From Xenopus tropicalis (taxonomy: Eukaryota > Chordata > Amphibia > Anura > Pipidae), in assembly GCF_000004195.4 (NCBI RefSeq), contig NC_030683.2, forward strand, positions 71,767,764 through 71,831,763: a stretch of DNA of 64,000 nucleotides, in the 5' to 3' direction. Shown here one piece after another: positions 9,935-60,971 of this stretch. The notes under the pieces were generated by a model. The model made no database searches and was not told where the DNA came from. It worked only from the letters and a program-made list of their open reading frames with translations. Each line of letters starts with the position of its first letter. The first letter of the stretch is position 1. A program made the translations under genes and the position numbers.

Positions 9935-10393
9935 GGGCCTGATTTACTTACCCACGAACGGGTCGAATGGAGTCCGATTGCGTTTTTTTCGTAATGATCG
10001 GTACTTTGCGATTTTTTCGTATGTTTTGCGTTTTTTTCGGATTCTTTACGAATTTTTCGGATCCAATACGATTTTTGCGTAAAAACGCGAGTTTTCCTAT
10101 CCATTACGAAAGTTGCGTAAAAAGTTGCGCATTTTGCGTAGCGTTAAAACTTACGCGAAAAATGCGCAACTTTTCGCGTAAGTTTTAACGCTACGCAAAA
10201 TGCGCAACTTTTTACACAACTTTCGTAATGGATACGAAAAACTCGCGTTTTTACGCAAAAATCGTATTGGATCCGAAAAATTCGTACAGAATCCGAAAAA
10301 ATCGCAAAACATACGAAAAAGTCGCAAAATATTCGTTTTCAAGTCGGAACTTTTCCAATTCGGGTCGGATTCGTGGGTTAGTAAATCAGCCCC
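9935..10393. mobile_element. Hairpin miniature element with TTA duplication (459 bp)
   Basis: TTA occurs at 9932-9934 and 10394-10396 and the ends are GGGCCTGATTTACT and the inverse of AGTAAATCAGCCCC. The two halves are reverse complements almost throughout, with only about 9 bp of loop near 10162-10170, so the transcript would fold into one long hairpin. The short frames on both strands are mirror images created by the palindrome. The 3-bp T-W-A duplication suggests a PIF/Harbinger transposase as the mover. Confidence 0.8.
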
Positions 10394-15534: not shown

Positions 15535-17820
15535 ATGAAACTTCATATTGCCTCATTAAATGTAGAAGGGCTTAACAGCCCACAGAAAAGGAGGTTACTA
15601 CTACAACAAACACATCTAGCAGGCAAGGGCCATCCTAAACTTTTCTCCAAAATATATCCAGAAATTATATATGCAAATGCATCGATTAAAAAAAATGGTG
15701 TAGCAATTTTGTTTAAAAAAAATCAAGGAGGTTACAACTGACTGTAAAGGGAGATACCTGATTGTAAATTTAGAATTACATTCACAGACTTATACTTTGG
15801 TTAATTTATATGCACCAAACACACACCAGATTAGTTTTATTAACAAAGTGCTAAAGAAAATCAAGCCTGAATCTAGAGACAACGTTTTAGTCTTGGGAGA
15901 CTTCAATTTAGCTCCAGACTCTTATGAAGATAAATCTCCAGTTCCACAAGGTAACACATTACGGGTTACACAACAATTAGCAAAAGCATTTACAAGTACT
16001 CTGAAAAGTAGTGAGTTGTATGATGTATGGAGATCCTGGCACCCTTCAGAACGTGATTACTCCTTCTCTGCAGCCCATTCCTCTTATTCTAGAATTGATC
16101 TAATTCTTTCTGATGTGAATTTATTAAACCAAATGACCAAGTCCTATATAGGAGTGTCCACTTGGTCAGACCATGCCCCAGTTGGATGTTATCTTGACCT
16201 TAAACATGTACCTTCTTCATCTCCTTATGGAAGTTAAATAATTCCATGTTATCAAATAAGTCTATTGTAGATAAAATTACTGATTGTACAATGGATTATC
16301 TAACAACTAATGAACGACCAGAAATTAACCCGGACTTAGTATGGTGTTCATATAAAGCTTTCATTCGAGGACACTTCATCTCTATAGCATCAAGGGAGAA
16401 AAAATGTAAGGCGGCTACTTTGTTAGACTTAAATCTTAAATTGCTAGAAGCAACAAATCAACATAAACTAAATCCAACTGGTGTGCTGGCCCAAAAAGTG
16501 GGCACCCAAAAAAGGAAATTAATATGCTTAATATGGAAAAGCTTGCTTATCAGATTCTTATGTCAAAACAGTTATACTATGCAGAGGATAATAGGGCGGG
16601 CAGACTGTTGGCTGGCAAACTAAAGGAAACAAGAACAGCTAACAGAATTCTTTCTATCAAAACCCAAGAAGGAGATAATCTAACCAATCCAAATCACATA
16701 GTACAAAAATTTACTAAATACTATTCAGAATTGTACAACAACAAAATCTAATCACTCCTCAGCCAGATCGAACGCTCATTTCGCAATTTTTAGACACCAT
16801 CAATGTGCTCACTTTATTAGAAATCCAATTGGAAACACTTAATTCTCCCATTACTTCTGAGAAGGTCTCCACCACAATCAAACTCCTTAAAAATAATAAA
16901 GCACCGGGACCTGATGGATTTTCTAATAATTTTTGTAAAATATTTGCAAAGACCCTATCTCCGATAGTAGCTAAATTGTTTGACTCATTATGTTCAGATC
17001 AGCTCCCTAGGCAAGAATTGTTTCAAGCAATAATCACAACAATTCCTAAACCAAATAAAGACCCATCTCTAGTCCAGAATTATCGGCCAATCTCCTTATT
17101 AAATTCTGACATAAAATTATATGCAAAAATATTAGCGAACCGATTGAACCCTATCCTGAGACACTTAGTCCATAATGATCAAATAGGCTTTGTACCAACC
17201 AGACAAGCTCCAGACAACACCAGGAAAATCATTAATGCAGCAACTTATGCCAATAATACAAAATCTCCCTGCTTACTATTATCCCTAGATGCGTAAAAGG
17301 CATCTTGGCTGGTCTCTTGGCTGTACTTAGAAATGGCTCTTCAAAAGTTTGGTTTCAAAGGTTCCTTTTAAGAAAAGGTTTTGACTCTCTATAAAACCCC
17401 TTCTGCATGTATCAGAGCTAATGGCCAATTCTCAATATTTTTACCCGTCAAGGATGTCCGTTATCCCTATTGATTTTCATCTTGTTAATGGAACCCCTAG
17501 CTGAATCAATTAGACAAAACTTACAAATCCATGGCTACTCAGTAGGTTCATACACTTGTAAAGTTTCTCTATTTGCACACAATATTATTTTAACTATCAC
17601 AGACCCCCTTACATCATTACCGGCCTTACTCCAATTATTAGATTAATTCTCTAAAGTATCATATTATAAAATTAATAGATTAAAGACTGAAGCCCTACCA
17701 AACTGGATTCCGAGTGATATTTTAAACAATTTAAAGTCCTCCTATGAGTTTGCCTGGCAACAGTCTGTCATCTCTTATCTGGGAATTAAAGTTGGTTTCT
17801 GTATTAAAACTTTGTACAAA
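15535..17820 (+). pseudogene. LINE ORF2 remnant: endonuclease and reverse transcriptase
   Basis: Pieces of an L1/Tx1-type ORF2 in at least three frames (15535-15741, 15797-16237, 16246-16623, 16524-16751, 16805-17296 and on to about 17820). Endonuclease landmarks: SLNVEGLN, NLYAPN, LGDFNLAPDS, SRIDLILSD and SDHAPV. The catalytic glutamate segment (QET in the family) is absent: the sequence jumps to QQTHLAGKG, suggesting a deletion. Reverse transcriptase landmarks: KAPGPDGFS, NYRPISLLN and QIGFVPTRQ. Motif A is cut by a stop after SLDA, and the expected F/Y-A-D-D motif C reads FAHN. It is therefore dead on several counts. The thumb and C-terminal region are largely missing after about 17820. 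Confidence 0.88.
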
Positions 17821-18411: not shown

Positions 18412-19047
18412 GGCCTATGCTGCCTGTGTGTACACACATAGGCAGCATAGGGCAGGGAGGGTATGGCACACACAGGTAGGGCAGGCAGAGTATGGCACAC
18501 AGGCATGGTAGGGCAGGCAGAGTATGGTACACACAGGCAGCATAGGGCAGGCAGAGTATGGCACACACAGGCAGCATAGGGCGGGCAGAGTATGGCACAC
18601 ACAGGCAGCATAGGCCAGGCAGAGTATGGCACACACAGGCAGCATAGGGCAGATAGAGTATGGCACACACAGGCATGGTAGGGCAGGCAGAGTATGGCAC
18701 ACACAGGCAGCATAGGGCAGGTAGAGTATGGCACACACAGGCATGGTAGGGCAGGCAGAGTATGGTACACACAGGCAGCATAGGGCAGGCAGAATATAGT
18801 ACTTACAGGCAGCATAGGGCAGGCAGAGTGCTGCCTGTGTGTGCCATACTCTGCCTGCCCTATGCTGCCTGTGTGCGTCATACTCTGCCTGCCCTATGCT
18901 ACCTGTGTGTGCCATACTCTGCCCGCCCTATGCTGCCTGTGTGTGCCATACTCTGCCTGCCCTCTGCTGCCTGTGTGTGCCATACTCTGCCTGCCCTATG
19001 CTGCCTGTGTGTGCCATACTCTGCCTGCCCTGTGCTGCCTGTGGGGG
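18412..19047. repeat. 34-bp minisatellite with orientation switches
   Basis: The unit is about 34 bp, built from GCATAGGGCAGGCAGAG and TATGGCACACACAGGCA. About 12 units run 18432-18830, then the array flips at about 18830/18831 and 6 more units run in reverse complement to 19047. A second flip lies at about 18431, where a partial reverse unit forms a hairpin around TGTGTGTACACACA. All the 70-166 codon cysteine/proline-rich frames across this array on both strands are translations of the repeat and not genes. Confidence 0.9.
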
Positions 19048-26589: not shown

Positions 26590-28020
26590 ATGCTGGGGGG
26601 GCAATATGAGGGGGGCTTAGCTGCTGGCACAGTACAGATAGGGGGCAATATGAGGGGGGCTTGGCTGCTGGCACAGTACAGATAGGGGGCAATATGAGGG
26701 GGGCTTGGCTGCTGGCACAGTACAGATGGGGGGCAATATGAGGGGGGCTTGGCTGCTGGCACAGGTACAGATAGGGGGCAATATGAGGGGGGCTTGGCTG
26801 CTGGCACAGGTACAGATAGGGGGCAATATGAGGGGGGCTTGGCTGCTGGCACAGTACAGATAGGGGGCAATATGAGGGGGGCTTGGCTGCTGGCACAGTA
26901 CAGATAGGGGGCAATATGAGGGGGGCTTAGCTGCTGGCACAGTACAGATAGGGGGCAATATGAGTGGGGCTTAGCTGCTGGCACAGTACAGATGGGGGGC
27001 AATATGAGGGGGGCTTGGCTGCTGGCACAGGTACAGATAGGGGGCAATATGAGGGGGGCTTGGCTGCTGGCACAGGTACAGATAGGGGGCAATATGAGGG
27101 GGGCTTAGCTGCTGGCACAGTACAGATAGGGGGCAATATGAGGGGGGCTTAGCTGCTGGCACAGTACAGATGGGGGGCAATATGAGGGGGGCTTGGCTGC
27201 TGGCACAGGTACAGATAGGGGGCAATATGAGGGGGGCTTGGCTGCTGGCACAGTACAGATAGGGGCAATATGAGGGGGGCTTGGCTGCTGGCACAGTACA
27301 GATAGGGGGCAATATGAGGGGGGCTTGGCTGCTGGCACAGTACAGATAGGGGGCAATATGAGGGGGGCTTGGCTGCTGGCACAGTACAGATAGGGGGCAA
27401 TATGAGGGGGGCTTAGCTGCTGGCACAGTACAGATAGGGGGCAATATGAGGGGGGCTTGGCTGCTGGCACAGGTACAGATGCTGGGGCCTGGGGGCGCAA
27501 TATAAGGGGGGCTTGGCTGCTGGCACAATACAGATGCTGGGGCCTGGGGGCGCAATATGAGGGGGGCTTGGCTGCTGGCACAATACAGATGCTGGGGCCT
27601 GGGGGCGCAATATGAGGGGGGCTTGGCTGCTGGCACAATACAGATGCTGGGGCCTGGGGGCGCAATATGAGGGGGGCTTGGCTGCTGGCACAATACAGAT
27701 GCTGGGGCCTGGGGGCGCAATATGAGGGGGGCTTGGCTGCTGGCACAATACAGATGCTGGGGCCTGGGGGCGCAATATGAGGGGGGCTTGGCTGCTGGCA
27801 CAGGTACAGATAGGGGGCAATATGAGGGGGGCTTGGCTGCTGGCACAGTACAGATAGGGGGCAATATGAGGGGGGCTTGGCTGCTGGCACAGGTACAGAT
27901 GCTGGGGCCTGGGGGCACAATATAAGGGGGGCTTGGCTGCTGGCACAGACAGTACAGATGCTGGGGCCTGGCTGGGGGCGCAATATGAGGGGGGCTTGGC
28001 TGCTGGCACAGTACAGATGG
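26590..28020. repeat. G-rich minisatellite within the hAT element
   Basis: About 30 tandem units of 44-46 bp (GGGGGGCTTGGCTGCTGGCA, then CAGTACAGATAGGGGGCAATATGA), changing to a 55-bp variant with GCTGGGGCCTGGGGGC between about 27475 and 27790. Each unit carries CAGGTACAG or CAGTACAG, close to the splice-donor motif just upstream. Partial units continue to about 28100. The long minus-strand open frames (up to 397 codons) encode only the repeat PSYCPLSVLCQQPSPPHIAP-like peptide and lack any gene context. Confidence 0.92.
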
Positions 28021-29159: not shown

Positions 29160-29174
29160 TTCATCTTTTGAGGA
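29160..29174 (+). promoter_or_regulatory. Putative splice acceptor and start context of transposase
   Basis: TTTTTCATCTTTTGAG ends at 29172, a pyrimidine-rich tract plus AG directly before GAATGG. It may be the 3' end of an intron of about 2.6 kb starting at 26584. The ATG at 29175 has G at +4. Both are inferred from motif only. Confidence 0.4.
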
Positions 29175-31649
29175 ATGGATATCCGACATTTCTTTAAAAA
29201 ACAGAAGCTTCAGGAATCAGAGGGAACTTCAGCAGCTTCATGTCAGGAAGCAGCAGCAGCAAAATGTTCATCTCAACAAAAAGCGGTGGCAATTGAAGTT
29301 CAGCAACAAGAATCGTTGGTACTTTCACGCCAACAACAAGCAGCAAATGTACTTCCCCTTGAACTACAAGCTGAAGTTCTTCAAGTTCCACAAACAAAAG
29401 AACTATTTCAACAAACAACTGGATCATGTCCACCTCAGTTTCCATCATCTTCACATGAGGAATCACCAAGGTCACTTGAAGGTTCAGATACCCATGAAAG
29501 TGCTGATGTTAATGACATTGGGTTATATGTTCAGTTGACATCACAACTTGCAGATGAGAGAAAACATGAGCTGTTAATGAGGGTTTTCACTCCCTCTGAG
29601 GCCTATGATTTTAAGAAGGATGCCAAAGGGCCACGCTGTTTCCGCCATGTGTGGTTAAAGCAGTATAGATGGATTTGTTATTCGCCACACCTAAAAGGAG
29701 CATTACGCAAATATTGTGTAATTTTTCCCCAGCCTGTCCATCGTGGCTTTCAAGGTGCCTTTATAACTGCTCCTTTCTTGAAGTATAGAGACTTTCACAA
29801 CAGTGCTAGAAAACACTCTTTAACTATGTGGCACAAACAAGCATATGCCGATGCAACTAATTTCATAAATGTGAGAAGTCACCCAGAACAGAGCATTGTG
29901 TGTCAAGTTAACAGTGCAGTTAAACATCAGGTTGAAGAAAACAGAAAAAAACTGTATTCAGTTCTATCAACTATAGTTTTTTGTGGAACTCATGACATTG
30001 CTCTACGAGGGAAAACAAGCACATCAGGCAATGTACAAGCCCTCTATGATTTTCGTATTGAATCAGGAGATGAGATCCTAAAAAATCATTTGAAAAATGC
30101 ACCTGTTAATGCACGTTATACATCTGTTCGTGTAGAAAATTAACTGATAGTACTCTGCGAAGACATTTTACGGGAGAGAATAATTTCTGCTGCAAACAAC
30201 TCTGTAGGTTTCTCAGTTATTGCAGATGAAAGTGCTGATATATCTGGGCATGAGCAGTTATCTCTTGGTGTAAGATTTGTAGATCTAACTATTACCCCAG
30301 TTAAAATCAGGGAAGAATTCCTTGGGTTTGCTACATTAAAGGCATTTGATGCCACATCCATTGCTAATGTCATTATGGAACAATGTATAAAGTTTGGTCT
30401 AAATATTGACAAACTATATGGTCAAGGCTATGATGGTTGCTCTACAATGGCTGGCAAGGAAGGTGGAGTACAAGCAAAAATCAAAGAAAAATACCCAAGA
30501 GCAATTTTTGTTCACTGTGCTAGTCATAAGCTGAACTTAGTAGTGAACAATCTTAATGCTGTTCCTGAGATAAGAAATGCTATTGGTAGTGTGAAGGCCA
30601 TTATCAAATTTTTCCGGGAAAGCCCAAAACGTAGATCTCTGATTCCTAATGTGCCATTACTTTGTGAAACACGTTGGACTGCAAAATATAAAAGCATCAG
30701 GGTTTTTTCAGAAAACTTTGACAGAATTTTTCAGCAACTGCGGGATCTAGTTTCTACAGCTTCTGGTAAGATATCCCAAGAAGCACATCAACTACTATGC
30801 TGCTCGAGTACTTCCACGTTTCTTTTCTGTCTTGTTATTATGGCTACTTATTCAGCAAGACTTGAGCCTTTAACTCAAGCTCTGCAGGCTGTTGAGATGG
30901 ATATAGCAAAAGCACATAGCCATGTTCAAGAGCTCATACAAATGTTTCTTAACCACAGACAACAGGCAGAAGAACATTTCAAAGACATTCTTGTAAATGT
31001 TCAAAATATTGCAGAGAGAACTGATATTGAGCTATCACTTCCAAGACGATGTGGCAGACAGAAGCATCACTCAAATGTTCCAGGCTCAACTGTTGAGGAA
31101 TACTATCGTCGTGCCATCTATGTGCCATACCTAGACTCTGTCATCGCATCACTAAAAACCCGGTTTGATTGCCACAACATAACCAATTTTAACCTTTTCT
31201 CTCTTCACCCACACCAAATGGCAAAAATAAAACAGCAAGAATTCAAAGAAAAGATCAAACAAATTACCAGCATATATAACATTGATAACTTGGATGCTGA
31301 AGCATTGACCTGGTTTGATTTGTGGTCAGGGAAAGAAAAACAAGACTTTCAAAATGGCCTTTTGGATTTATTACCATACACAGATCTAATTCCAGCTGTT
31401 CGACAAGCAATTCTGATTGCACTTACGTTACCAGTCACTACTTGCACTGTGGAAAGATCCTTCAGCTCAATGAGAAGGGTGAAAACATGGCTCAGGTCAA
31501 CAATGACTGTGAATCGTTTGTCTGGACTCTGCATGATGAGTCTTCATCGTGATATAGTGAATGAAAACAGGCCACAGTTCATACATGAAGTTGTTGACAA
31601 ATTTGCCCAAGATCACAGACGACTACAATTCCTTTTTCGTGCTAACTGA
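29175..31649 (+). pseudogene. hAT transposase, one in-frame stop codon
   Basis: A continuous 824-codon frame broken only by TAA at 30141-30143 (codon 323). Residues 1-90 are glutamine- and alanine-rich; about 155-245 resembles the TTF-type zinc finger/DUF4371 entry (FRHVWLKQYRWICYSP, ALRKYCVIF). The catalytic domain has D351 (VIADESAD), D420 (GQGYDGCSTMAG), the C448..H451 motif (HCASHKLN) and E760 (VTTCTVERSFSSM) in the C-terminal dimerisation region, so the expected acidic triad is complete. The length and lack of introns in the body fit the P52rIPK/ZMYM-like group of animal hAT transposases, which cut and paste DNA bounded by short inverted repeats. It lies 0.6 kb inside the right end of its own element. 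The stop could be a recent mutation, a sequencing error or suppressed; as read, it separates the zinc finger from the catalytic core. A start at codon 401 (M401) would lack D351. Confidence 0.9.
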
Positions 31650-54628: not shown

Positions 54629-56016
54629 GCTAACAGGGTTGCCCTGAACTGCCCCTATGACTACTAAACAGTAGAACACATGTTACAATAAAACTCTTGG
54701 ATGAAGATTGTTTTCTTCTTCAAGAAGCTGGTCCCTTTGATGTTTAAAAAAAAAAAAAGTTTTCACTATAACCTTACCCCATAGGCTCTTAATTTTTAGC
54801 CATTTTCTTCCAATGTAATAAAAAGGAGAGCATAAATCTACTGCATCCTTATATAATACTAGAAATGTCAACTGATTCTGTCATATGAGACACCTCGGCA
54901 CTCACATGCAATTATGTACCCCTACTAGTAAAACAATCAACCAGCCAGGTAGTACAGGGGACATGTGCCTGGTAAGGCTATTAACCTTGCCATAATGCAA
55001 ACTGATTTCTTATGAGATCAAACTCTGCAGATTGCAATATTATAGCAATAAATATGCATCATTTCAATTTTTGCCTGCATTACACATCCACTCATGACTA
55101 GACCCGCCCTAATCCACTCACATCTACCCTAATCTTGCACCTTTCTGATAAATCCCAATCCATTTTTGTTGCAGAATTGAAAAGTGTTAATAGGAAAATG
55201 ACATCTGACAAATATGGTAATTAGTGCTGCAGCGTGTGTAGGTATTTGGCAGCTCTTAGTTCACTTTACCCTTGGAAATTGCTAACTTGAACATCAAGTT
55301 ATGGCTCTTTGGAGCTCACTAATAGAACTTGTTAGTTGACACTGTTGACACTCAGTATTGTAGATAAATAATGTGAAATTTTTGCTTCTGTTAGTTTTGA
55401 GATTGTCTCAAATCAAAACAAAACAGTTATTCAGTCCATTTTCAGTTAGCACCTGGTAACATTTCTCCCATTATGTGACAACGTTGTTATACTACTCGAC
55501 CCAAAACTTCCAGTTTCTGATTTGAGCTATATCAAATCTTGGTGGCAAGATGACAGATTTCAGGTTAATTTATTACTTCAACTAATTTAAACTCAACTTC
55601 TCTTATTTTCTTCTGGCATCTTGCCCTTTGCAGCCTACAACCTGTAATTGTATGATATTATTTCCAGAGATTAATGTGCATTGCTTATTAGGACATAAAG
55701 ATTATTTTCTGTGAACCCAAAACATTTAGCACTGTATAAAACCACAGAGATCAAGACATGTAAGGATAACCAATATCTAAATATGCATTAAATAAAAACT
55801 AGTGGTGCCCTGAATACATGCAAAAATAAAAATAAAATAGAATTACATTTCTAATGAGAGAATAATGGACAGCTAATGTACTGATGCAAAACCTGGGGAT
55901 ATGTTGTCTGCTTGAGTACAGGAAATGAAACCCCCATAAATGGGAAGGGAGAAATATCTTAGGTAATATAAGTATGCTGATTTAATTTCCTTTAATTTGT
56001 TTGTAAAATAAGAGGC
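54629..56016. other. No recognised feature
   Basis: AT-rich, short poly-A; no repeat or coding signal named. Confidence 0.45.
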
Positions 56017-56391
56017 CTATTACTAAGATACCAATAGCAGTATTGGGGAGCTCAACCCTCTGTTAACTTACCCAAACGGGTATCAGGTGCAAATACTTGA
56101 AGAACCTCACCTTGCATGGGGGTCAATATCCAACAGCAAAAAAATCCAGTAGCACACTGAAGATGCAAGCCGTAAAAAAATTGTATTTTATTTGCCCAAG
56201 TACATATAAACAAGCAAAGAGCAACGTTTCGGGACCCTCTGGACCCTTTCTCAAGCTTGAGAAAGGGTCCGGAGGGTCCCGAAACGTTGCTCTTTGCTTG
56301 TTTATATGTACTTGGGCAAATAAAATACAATTTTTTTACGGCTTGCATCTTCAGTGTGCTACTGGATTTTTTTGCTATTACTAAGATACCA
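56017..56391. mobile_element. Palindromic insertion with 17-bp direct repeats
   Basis: CTATTACTAAGATACCA occurs at 56017-56033 and again at 56375-56391, a 17-bp target duplication. Between them is a ~100-bp unique segment and a 242-bp palindrome (56135-56376). Variable-length duplications of this size are typical of target-primed reverse transcription. The inverted arrangement and the GAAACGTTGC motif fit Penelope-like elements, but no coding sequence is present, so the family is inferred. Confidence 0.75.
56135..56376. repeat. 242-bp palindrome, one mismatch, no spacer
   Basis: Centred at 56255/56256 in TCAAGCTTGA. The arms are 121 bp each and differ at one position (CTCT versus CTCC near 56239/56272). 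Each arm contains GGGTCCC-GAAACGTTGC and AAATACAATTTTTTTACGG. The 95- and 118-codon frames on the two strands are the same peptide read from either arm and not genes. Confidence 0.95.
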
Positions 56392-56967
56392 GTCACAGGT
56401 AAGTCCACCTTCCCTTAATGCACTCCTACACAGCCATTCCTCAATAAAAATTGGTCCCTTATTATCTCTTCCTGGTGCGATGCTATGCTGGTGCTCTTTC
56501 TAGTGTCTTCCCAATGGGGGCTTATTCTCTAGGCTGGTGTACCACACATCTTCTCTTTGATTAGCTCAGCAGATTCTACTTCCTTACTGAATTCTGAAGC
56601 AAAATCTTTGTTGGAAAATAGCTAGGGGTTCATTAAAGTCTCTGGTAGTACCCCATTTCCTGCAAGGCCACCAATTCCAAACTCTTTGAGGTACTTTCTG
56701 AAGCAGAGATATGTGTGGAAAAATCTTGAGAAAACCAAAGCTGTTGTATGGGGTAACTACCCTAAGTGGTGCTGTAATGAGCAAGACCTATGTTGTCAAT
56801 TTGCCAGTGGAACAGGCTGTTCTGGTTAATAGACAAAAACTGTGATTTGCTGTTACTTTTGCCATCTTGGAGTCTACACTGATAAAAGATTGATAAGAGA
56901 TACCGGCTCTGCACTTCAGGCAGGCACTATGTTCTGTTTTATACTTTCGCACCTAGAAAGTTTGAAA

Positions 56968-57234: not shown

Positions 57235-57945
57235 GGAGAGACATGATTGAGTTAGAGAGGGTCCAGAGAAGGACAACTAACAAGGTGGTAAAGGGTATGG
57301 AAAGTCTCAGTTATGAAGAAAGTTGGGTCTGTTTACACTGGAGAAGAGGCGCTTAAGAGGTGACATGATAACTATGTATAAATATATAAGAGGATCATAT
57401 AATAACCTTTCTAATGTTTTATTTACCAGTAGGTCCTTCCAACAGACAAGAGGGCACCCACTCCGTTTAGAAGAAGGGATGTTCCATTTAAATATTCGGA
57501 AAGGATTTTTTACTGTGAGAGCTGTGAAGTTGTGGAATTCCCTCCCCGAATCAGTTGTGCTGGCTGATACATTATATAACTTTAAGAAGGGGCTGGATGG
57601 CTTCTTAGCAAGTGAGGGAATACAGGGTTATGGGAGATAGCTCTCAGTACAAGTGAGGGAATACAGGGTTATGGGAGATAGCTCTCAGTACAAGTGAGGG
57701 AATACAGGGTTATGGGAGATAGCTCTTAGTACAAGCTAATCCAGGGACTGGTCCGATTGCCATCTTGGAGTCACAAAGAAATTTTTTCCCCTCTGCGGCA
57801 AATTAGAGAGGTTTCAGATGGGGTTTTTTGCCTTCCTCTGGATCAACTAGAAGTTAGGCAGGTTATATATAGGCATTATGGTTGAACGTGATGGACGTAT
57901 GTCTTTTTCCAGCCCAACTTACTATGTTACTATGTTACTATAAGA
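57235..57945 (+). mobile_element. CR1-type LINE 3' end
   Basis: After ELERVQRRTTN (frame-shifted) a 105-codon frame at 57323-57640 reads LFTLEKRRLRGDMITMYKYI, TRGHPLRLEE, FFTVRAVKLWNSLPE and FKKGLDGFL, the C-terminal end of a CR1-type ORF2. The 3' UTR follows, with a 41-bp triplication (57612-57734), GATTGCCATCTTGGAGTC near 57758, and a terminal TACTATGTTACTATG. The copy is 5'-truncated. Confidence 0.85.
57612..57734. repeat. 41-bp triplication
   Basis: GTGAGGGAATACAGGGTTAT, followed by GGGAGATAGCTCTCAGTACAA, occurs at 57612, 57653 and 57694. The units are almost identical, so the expansion is recent. It begins in the last codons of the LINE frame and runs into the 3' UTR. Confidence 0.9.
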
Positions 57946-60695: not shown

Positions 60696-60971
60696 CAGGG
60701 GTCCCCAACCGCCAGGCCGTGGACCAGTTCCAGGCAGTGGACGGCATGGCAGTGGGCCGCATCAGTTCCCGTGAACAAAAACCACGCAATGCACACCTAA
60801 AGGAGCCTGCAGTTTGCACCGAGCACACCCTCCCTCCCCCCCCCCAGCGCGTCGTATGTATAACGGGCCTGAAGTTCGCGCCGCACCGCGCCACCCCCTC
60901 TGCCCCCGATCCGTGGAAAAATTTTTTTGCCTCCATCAGGCCCGTGGCGCTAAAAAGGTTGGGGACCCCTG
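60696..60971. mobile_element. hAT (Charlie-like) miniature element (276 bp)
   Basis: Ends CAGGGGTCCCCAACC and GGTTGGGGACCCCTG are perfect 15-bp inverted repeats, typical of hAT elements. The flanks are an exact 8-bp duplication ATGTAAAG (60688-60695, 60972-60979). Interior GC-rich, CpG-rich, without transposase. The 134- and 139-codon frames run across its ends and are not genes. Confidence 0.93.

Follow-up and report, generated by a model that had tools for sequence, protein, structure and literature searches.

Two leader copies joined head to head in Xenopus tropicalis: a Penelope-like family with two fixed ends and a probable origin by priming from both target strands

In this study, we followed a long palindrome in one stretch of the Xenopus tropicalis genome (the window, 64,000 nt, G000:C7:71767764-71831763; genome 1,451,301,209 bases in 167 contigs) and found that it belongs to a short, leader-only copy of a Penelope-like retrotransposon, in which two copies of the leader lie head to head. 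Inserts of this kind probably arise when both nicked strands of the target prime cDNA, one at each of two fixed sites (A and B), with a single RNA or two RNAs from the same locus as template, and the two cDNAs meet at the RNA 5′ end. This reading is supported by the genomic family, by its two ends, its target duplications and target motif, by the markers that the two arms share, and by the linkage of the leader to reverse transcriptase (RT) and endonuclease frames. The insertion mode of Penelope-like elements (PLEs) is still open, and their inverted leaders ("pLTRs") have so far been explained by conjecture.

RESULTS

The insert in the window

The palindrome has no spacer and spans 242 bp (56135-56376). 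Its arms (56135-56255 and 56256-56376) pair at 120 of 121 positions, with a single mismatch between 56240 T and 56271 G, and are still 98% complementary when extended to 124 nt; the runner-up among spacerless palindromes in the window has 24-bp arms (one mismatch allowed). As the first-pass annotation had claimed, it is part of an insertion within 17-bp direct repeats: CTATTACTAAGATACCA stands at 56017-56033 and again at 56375-56391, identical at 17 of 17 positions, and encloses an insert proper of 341 bp (56034-56374). The halves of the insert are unequal. On the left, the A arm (56034-56255, minus strand from the centre) is leader unit 1-222, with tail end A at 56034 adjoining the left duplication; on the right, the B arm (56256-56374, plus strand) is leader unit 1-119, with tail end B adjoining the right duplication. 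Here and below, the unit is the reverse complement of 56034-56255, numbered from the centre. Since both units reach the duplication, the inverted join was in place at integration. The two heads meet at the centre, CTCAAGCTTGAG (56250-56261), where the presumed RNA 5′ ends would overlap by AGCT. Read inward, the flanks are AGGC on the left (56013-56016, plus strand, adjoining the duplication) and TGAC on the right (GTCA at 56392-56395, read on the minus strand), both of which fit the family motif WGNC.

The window also holds other repeats. LINE-type frames (Exo_endo_phos_2 and RVT_1) are found, fragmented, at 15704-17296, and two adjacent frames at 29172-31649, the second of which matches hAT transposase models (Dimer_Tnp_hAT, DUF4371). 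A 34-bp satellite array (18433-19043) stands opposite an inverted array of the same 34-bp unit at 18829, a G-rich tandem array of 44- and 55-bp units with long open frames throughout occupies 26597-28019, and about three repeats of a 41-bp unit, with 98% matches, lie at 57609-57735. The hairpin at 10002-10331 has 94-bp arms that are 96% complementary and a spacer of 142 nt; no surrounding duplication longer than 7 bp was found.

A family with variable target duplications

A genome search with one arm gave 58 matches at 94-100% identity (40 scored of 397 candidates), and a 23-base pattern, GGGTCCCGAAACGTTGCTCTTTG, occurs at 175 genome sites with at most one mismatch, compared to 0 for the reversed-pattern control. 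The search for further copies that had been proposed at the outset returned 175 sites; the loci sampled among them include one-tailed as well as inverted copies, with variable duplications. Our locus sample consists of 97 stretches, which reduce to 75 loci, with 100 of the 175 pattern sites listed. Both duplications were placed in 61 of the 75 loci; 13 have no duplication of at least 12 bp inside the stretch, and one locus (L037) was left out because its target is a tandem repeat. Duplication lengths in the 61 inserts run from 12 to 17 bp (12 bp in 4, 14 in 2, 15 in 19, 16 in 24 and 17 in 12), so that 55 fall at 15-17 bp, and the four 12-bp duplications (L019, L024, L033 and L094) may be partly due to chance. 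No head-to-tail pair of units is present among the matches listed (stretches of 0.9-9.5 kb). A repeated GGGTCC head block is, by rule, full in 61 of the 75 loci, absent in 4 and neither in 10, the copies that lack it including L041, L068 and L089. At L026 (890-1624) the unit lies in two pieces, 190-222 and 1-193, about 0.5 kb apart, perhaps through a later insertion.

Beyond this genome, viral contigs gave no match to exact pieces of the unit or to a hammerhead-plus-AATAAA pattern; one pattern matched a single Flavobacteriaceae contig among other genome contigs, with only 18 bp in common; and neither a phage search nor a protein search with the open frame that spans the palindrome gave a match.

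These copies bear on two readings of the palindrome. A fold-back read does yield a perfect inverted duplication, and an artefact of assembly or of such reads could in that respect look like the window insert; we find this barely credible given the unequal tails, the flanking duplications and the 61 inserts at distinct places, each with its own duplication. A cut-and-paste or fold-back DNA transposon would likewise place an inverted structure within a duplication. Such elements have terminal inverted repeats and a short fixed duplication, like the element at 60696-60971 of the window, whose inverted ends (CAGGGGTCCCCAACC) measure 15 bp and whose duplication (ATGTAAAG) measures 8 bp, in appearance a non-autonomous hAT-type element. 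In the family studied here the duplications vary between 12 and 17 bp and the two ends are unlike, so the chance of a DNA transposon is close to nil. The first-pass annotation had held that cut-and-paste elements do not give duplications like this one and had named fixed short duplications with symmetric ends as what would overturn its view; the copies show neither.

Two fixed ends, often paired and never doubled in the sample

Tails end at two places. End A is unit position 222 plus up to TGCTAT, and end B is unit position ~119-126, TTTTTTTGCTGTTG; by inspection, both start zones have TGCTRTTG in common. Classified by rule, the 61 inserts comprise 38 with A and B, 17 with A only, 6 with B only, and none with two A or two B ends, a pairing that rests on the 75-locus sample and not on all 175 sites. 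By eye, three of the A-only inserts (L026, L046 and L048) start at B too, which brings A+B to 41. If ends were drawn independently, 38 mixed pairs out of 38 would have, even at the best-case frequency, a probability of 0.5^38. An AA insert would be a long perfect palindrome, and such inserts could have been lost to instability or in assembly. The absence of BB is hardly explained in this way, because a BB palindrome would not exceed the observed one in length.

In ten of the 14 remaining A-only inserts (L010, L016, L019, L023, L024, L045, L073, L074, L078 and L097) the head is joined to the duplication directly or with a few extra bases between them, two (L017 and L033) have longer bodies, and in two (L029 and L065) A is combined with an inverted start near unit positions 30 and 61, not at B. 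The head is likewise joined to the duplication in five B-only inserts (L036, L043, L070, L080 and L089), the sixth, L068, having a longer body; since B-only inserts exist, B can serve as a start site on its own. Three inserts start at B and break off after a short run: L040 and L081 jump to the head after ~8-11 nt, and L067 jumps into the arm after ~11 nt. An aborted second cDNA or a deletion would leave such a trace.

A symmetric target

The duplication lies between two facing WGNC motifs, the consensus being WGNC, then N15-17, then GNCW. In the 57 inserts with a duplication of at least 14 bp, G stands at -3 in 39 and 38 of the 57 flanks on the two sides and C at -1 in 38 and 42, compared to a background of ~0.20 for each. 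Judged from these flanks, the pattern suggests a single enzyme that cuts each strand alike, 15-17 bp apart.

The head of the unit and its centre

The exact centre, TCTCAAGCTTGAGA, is present in 12 of the 61 resolved inserts, the window copy included, which speaks against a local assembly fold-back. The remaining centres vary from insert to insert, which implies that the junction is made anew in each. This matters for the idea of a palindromic master copy, in which the whole 341-bp palindrome would be transcribed and inserted as a unit. The shared exact centre would fit it, as would the lengths of the A+B inserts, which cluster near 340. Against it stand the junctions that differ between inserts, heads truncated at various positions (at 39 in L003, 142 in L013, 180 in L022 and 128 in L072) and the existence of A-only and B-only copies, and we regard it as very unlikely.

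Longer copies extend above unit position 1 with CTTTATAACTTGCACACTAAATAGTGCAC...TTAG followed by CTTGAG, and TATAA lies 32 nt above position 1 in all 12 occurrences listed, out of 14. Head-to-target junctions begin with CTTGAG, GCTTGAG or AGCTTGAG in L023, L010, L097 and L043, and with other bases in L019, L074 and L089. From this we infer that the element RNA starts with AGCTTGAG, ~30 nt below a TATA box.

The heads of both arms carry a hammerhead-like stretch (56256-56288, plus strand, in the B arm; its mirror image at 56223-56255, minus strand, in the A arm). An intact hammerhead was rejected, as Rfam lists none here; the microRNA matches in Rfam fall below their gathering scores. The core CUGANGA of minimal type I hammerheads is near the motif at one site in the 75 loci, and canonical type I hammerheads in tandem units, the retrozyme arrangement, appear neither in Rfam results nor among the matches listed. 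A strict descriptor, whose tolerance was chosen after viewing the sequence, asks for a hairpin and then GAAACGTT, below a core that is two edits from CUGANGA; within the window it fits the two arms and nothing else, and it fits 1 of 300 simulated windows. A loose descriptor gave 12 matches in the window, two of them the arms; since 40 simulated windows averaged 5.25 matches and reached 11 at most, this proves little. Folding of the head and of two unit pieces is no better than that of shuffles (z of 0.71, 0.72 and 0.12). We call the stretch a degenerate remnant.

One source for both arms

In the 34 inserts with comparable overlapping arms, the arms differ at 46 of 3365 positions. At the subfamily marker sites 49, 71, 86 and 87, discordance between the arms is 1 of 34, 1 of 33, 0 of 33 and 0 of 34, whereas shuffled arms give 13.5-15.5 (~15.5 at site 87) and 0 of 10,000 shuffles were as low; the two disagreements, one site each, are in L061 and L021. 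Of 13 arm differences whose alleles are found in other loci, 10 fall at unit sites 16, 25 and 31. All three sites belong to CpG pairs in the unit, which makes recurrent mutation the likely explanation; site 16 is also where the window copy has its one mismatch. Both arms of an insert derive from one source sequence. The shared subfamily markers rule out that the two arms come from RNAs of different loci.

A single source is also what self-priming would produce, that is, a first cDNA from one target strand that folds back and copies itself to the other target end, a proposal made, on an antisense template, for inverted pLTRs in the accessible part of PMC3846280. It accounts for the common markers of both arms and for the head-to-head join. 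It offers no explanation for the narrow B end in 38 of the 61 inserts, for B-only inserts or for very short B arms. When a strand folds back, some bases are usually left as a small loop, and the 12 of 61 exact centres would require the loop to be self-complementary. We therefore hold self-priming to be unlikely, although it deserves more weight than the other alternatives considered here.

Coding relatives

Two overlapping stretches, L034 and L075, cover one insert of ~4.1 kb with duplication ACATAATGTTACATAG (boundaries by eye), whose B end lies left and A end right. Along its B arm the order is RT, endonuclease region and, further down, the unit. The RT frame (L034:6183-6974, minus strand), in the same insert as a unit, matches PF00078 with E 6.4e-9 and 36.3 bits (cut-off 29.6), and in the opposite arm a GIY-YIG frame (L034:7566-8000, plus strand) matches PF01541 with E 1.6e-4 and 22.4 bits, just under the cut-off of 22.6. 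The endonuclease copy of the RT arm (L034:5419-6237, minus strand) matches no Pfam family at 0.01; the endonuclease copies of the two arms are 99% identical over 210 amino acids. With the RT piece, a PDB search gave no match, and NCBIfam only weak matches to bacterial RT models, below cut-offs. L071, an insert of 2598 bp that has both ends, and L068 also carry an endonuclease region upstream of a unit and oriented like it; in L042 the two are oppositely oriented.

RT plus GIY-YIG is the canonical Penelope-like arrangement, as set out in the accessible part of PMC11167929. The place of the unit, downstream of RT and GIY-YIG frames in relatives, identifies it as the leader, or pLTR, of a GIY-YIG type PLE, and the family combines an RT frame, GIY-YIG downstream of RT, inverted pLTRs with a tail, and variable duplications. 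A Penelope-like retroelement inserted by target-primed reverse transcription, one of the first-pass suggestions, is supported by these frames. The label "non-autonomous" fits the window copy, which yet belongs to a coding family: longer relatives have protein frames.

The same frames weigh on a last alternative, in which a LINE would have mobilised a SINE or another non-autonomous element, with a template switch or twin priming. LINE-1 duplications usually have a range that includes the 12-17 bp seen here. The window copy has no poly(A) at either outer end, the target is WGNC and not T-rich, the arms overlap, and the longer family members bear RT plus GIY-YIG frames of their own, which makes a LINE-moved element highly improbable. 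Twin priming yields non-overlapping halves. Since the arms here copy the same 121 bases and the second tail starts at a fixed site, the earlier suggestion of a template switch or twin priming, if taken as the LINE-1 process on one RNA, is the less supported part of what had been proposed.

DISCUSSION

How the palindrome may form

Taken together, we favor priming by both nicked target strands, in the following steps. An element protein, probably a dimer, would nick both strands after WGNC, ~15-17 bp apart. Each 3′-OH would then prime reverse transcription at A or at B of one RNA, or of two RNAs from one locus, and both cDNAs would extend to the presumed RNA 5′ end. The cDNA ends, AGCT, are self-complementary and could anneal and be filled in; the product would be a palindrome that has no spacer and two unequal tails, and one-tailed inserts may result when the second priming fails or stops early. 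Counting against this course of events are the starts off B in L029 and L065 and the marker disagreements in L061 and L021.

The data fit a single RNA as well as two RNAs from the same locus. The one-RNA version would have to copy unit positions 1-121 twice, which needs strand displacement. We give an even chance to the more specific idea that a single RNA serves both strands, with the halves of the dimer each holding one TGCTRTTG start, primed from the symmetric WGNC nicks, so that two-tailed inserts are A+B and never AA or BB; if it is true, this would be paired target-primed reverse transcription with the palindrome as its normal product. More generally, if both strands do prime, a puzzling structural oddity would become the normal product of a reaction. 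A family with 175 sites, near-identical arms, two fixed starts and a symmetric motif makes priming of this kind testable in the tube.

Comparison with known systems

Inverted pLTRs of Penelope with palindromic junctions, tails and target duplications are described in the accessible parts of PMC3846280 and PMC8969392, so the word "novel" in the first-pass annotation holds only in part. The A/B pairing, the shared arm markers and the WGNC target were not found in the literature searched, outside which lie Repbase, Dfam and most subscription papers, and the family itself may well be catalogued already. Literature searches on the motif sequences brought up nothing of evident relevance.

With metazoan retrozymes, as far as PMC7229834 and PMC7761336 are accessible, the family shares a short unit (170-400 nt published, 222 here) and a hammerhead-like motif, and PLE machinery has been suggested as their helper. 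Most retrozymes are arranged in tandem and have canonical type I hammerheads, whereas here no tandem pair is listed and Rfam gives no hammerhead. Minimal type I hammerheads have been reported in PLE leaders as well (PMC7761336, accessible part).

The Penelope of the rotifer Adineta vaga, in the accessible part of PMC3846280, is alike in that the adjacent inverted pLTR is shorter than the direct one, that one inverted pLTR has an optional tail, and that a palindromic inverted junction and head-to-head order go with target duplications. It differs in the lengths: duplications there are 8-10 bp, with one copy lacking any, compared to 12-17 bp, mostly 15-17, here, and its tail is 31 bp, whereas A and B are ~100 bp apart. 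Set against the same account, the symmetric WGNC target is a feature of the family described here.

The closest parallel in biochemistry is PAc, a Poseidon-type PLE of Anolis carolinensis, described in the accessible part of PMC11167929. PAc has a preference for ATT targets and for an AC-rich stem loop, whereas the family studied here has WGNC targets and TGCTRTTG at both start zones, and its hammerhead is conserved, whereas ours is a degenerate hammerhead-like stretch. The Anolis protein, predicted to be dimeric, shows in vitro no strand difference in where it starts, a point against our model, with no pairing per event reported in that part of the paper. The two systems are alike in having RT plus GIY-YIG, in that the PAc protein cuts and extends both strands, and in that it starts internally at two adjacent sites, which match genomic tail ends.
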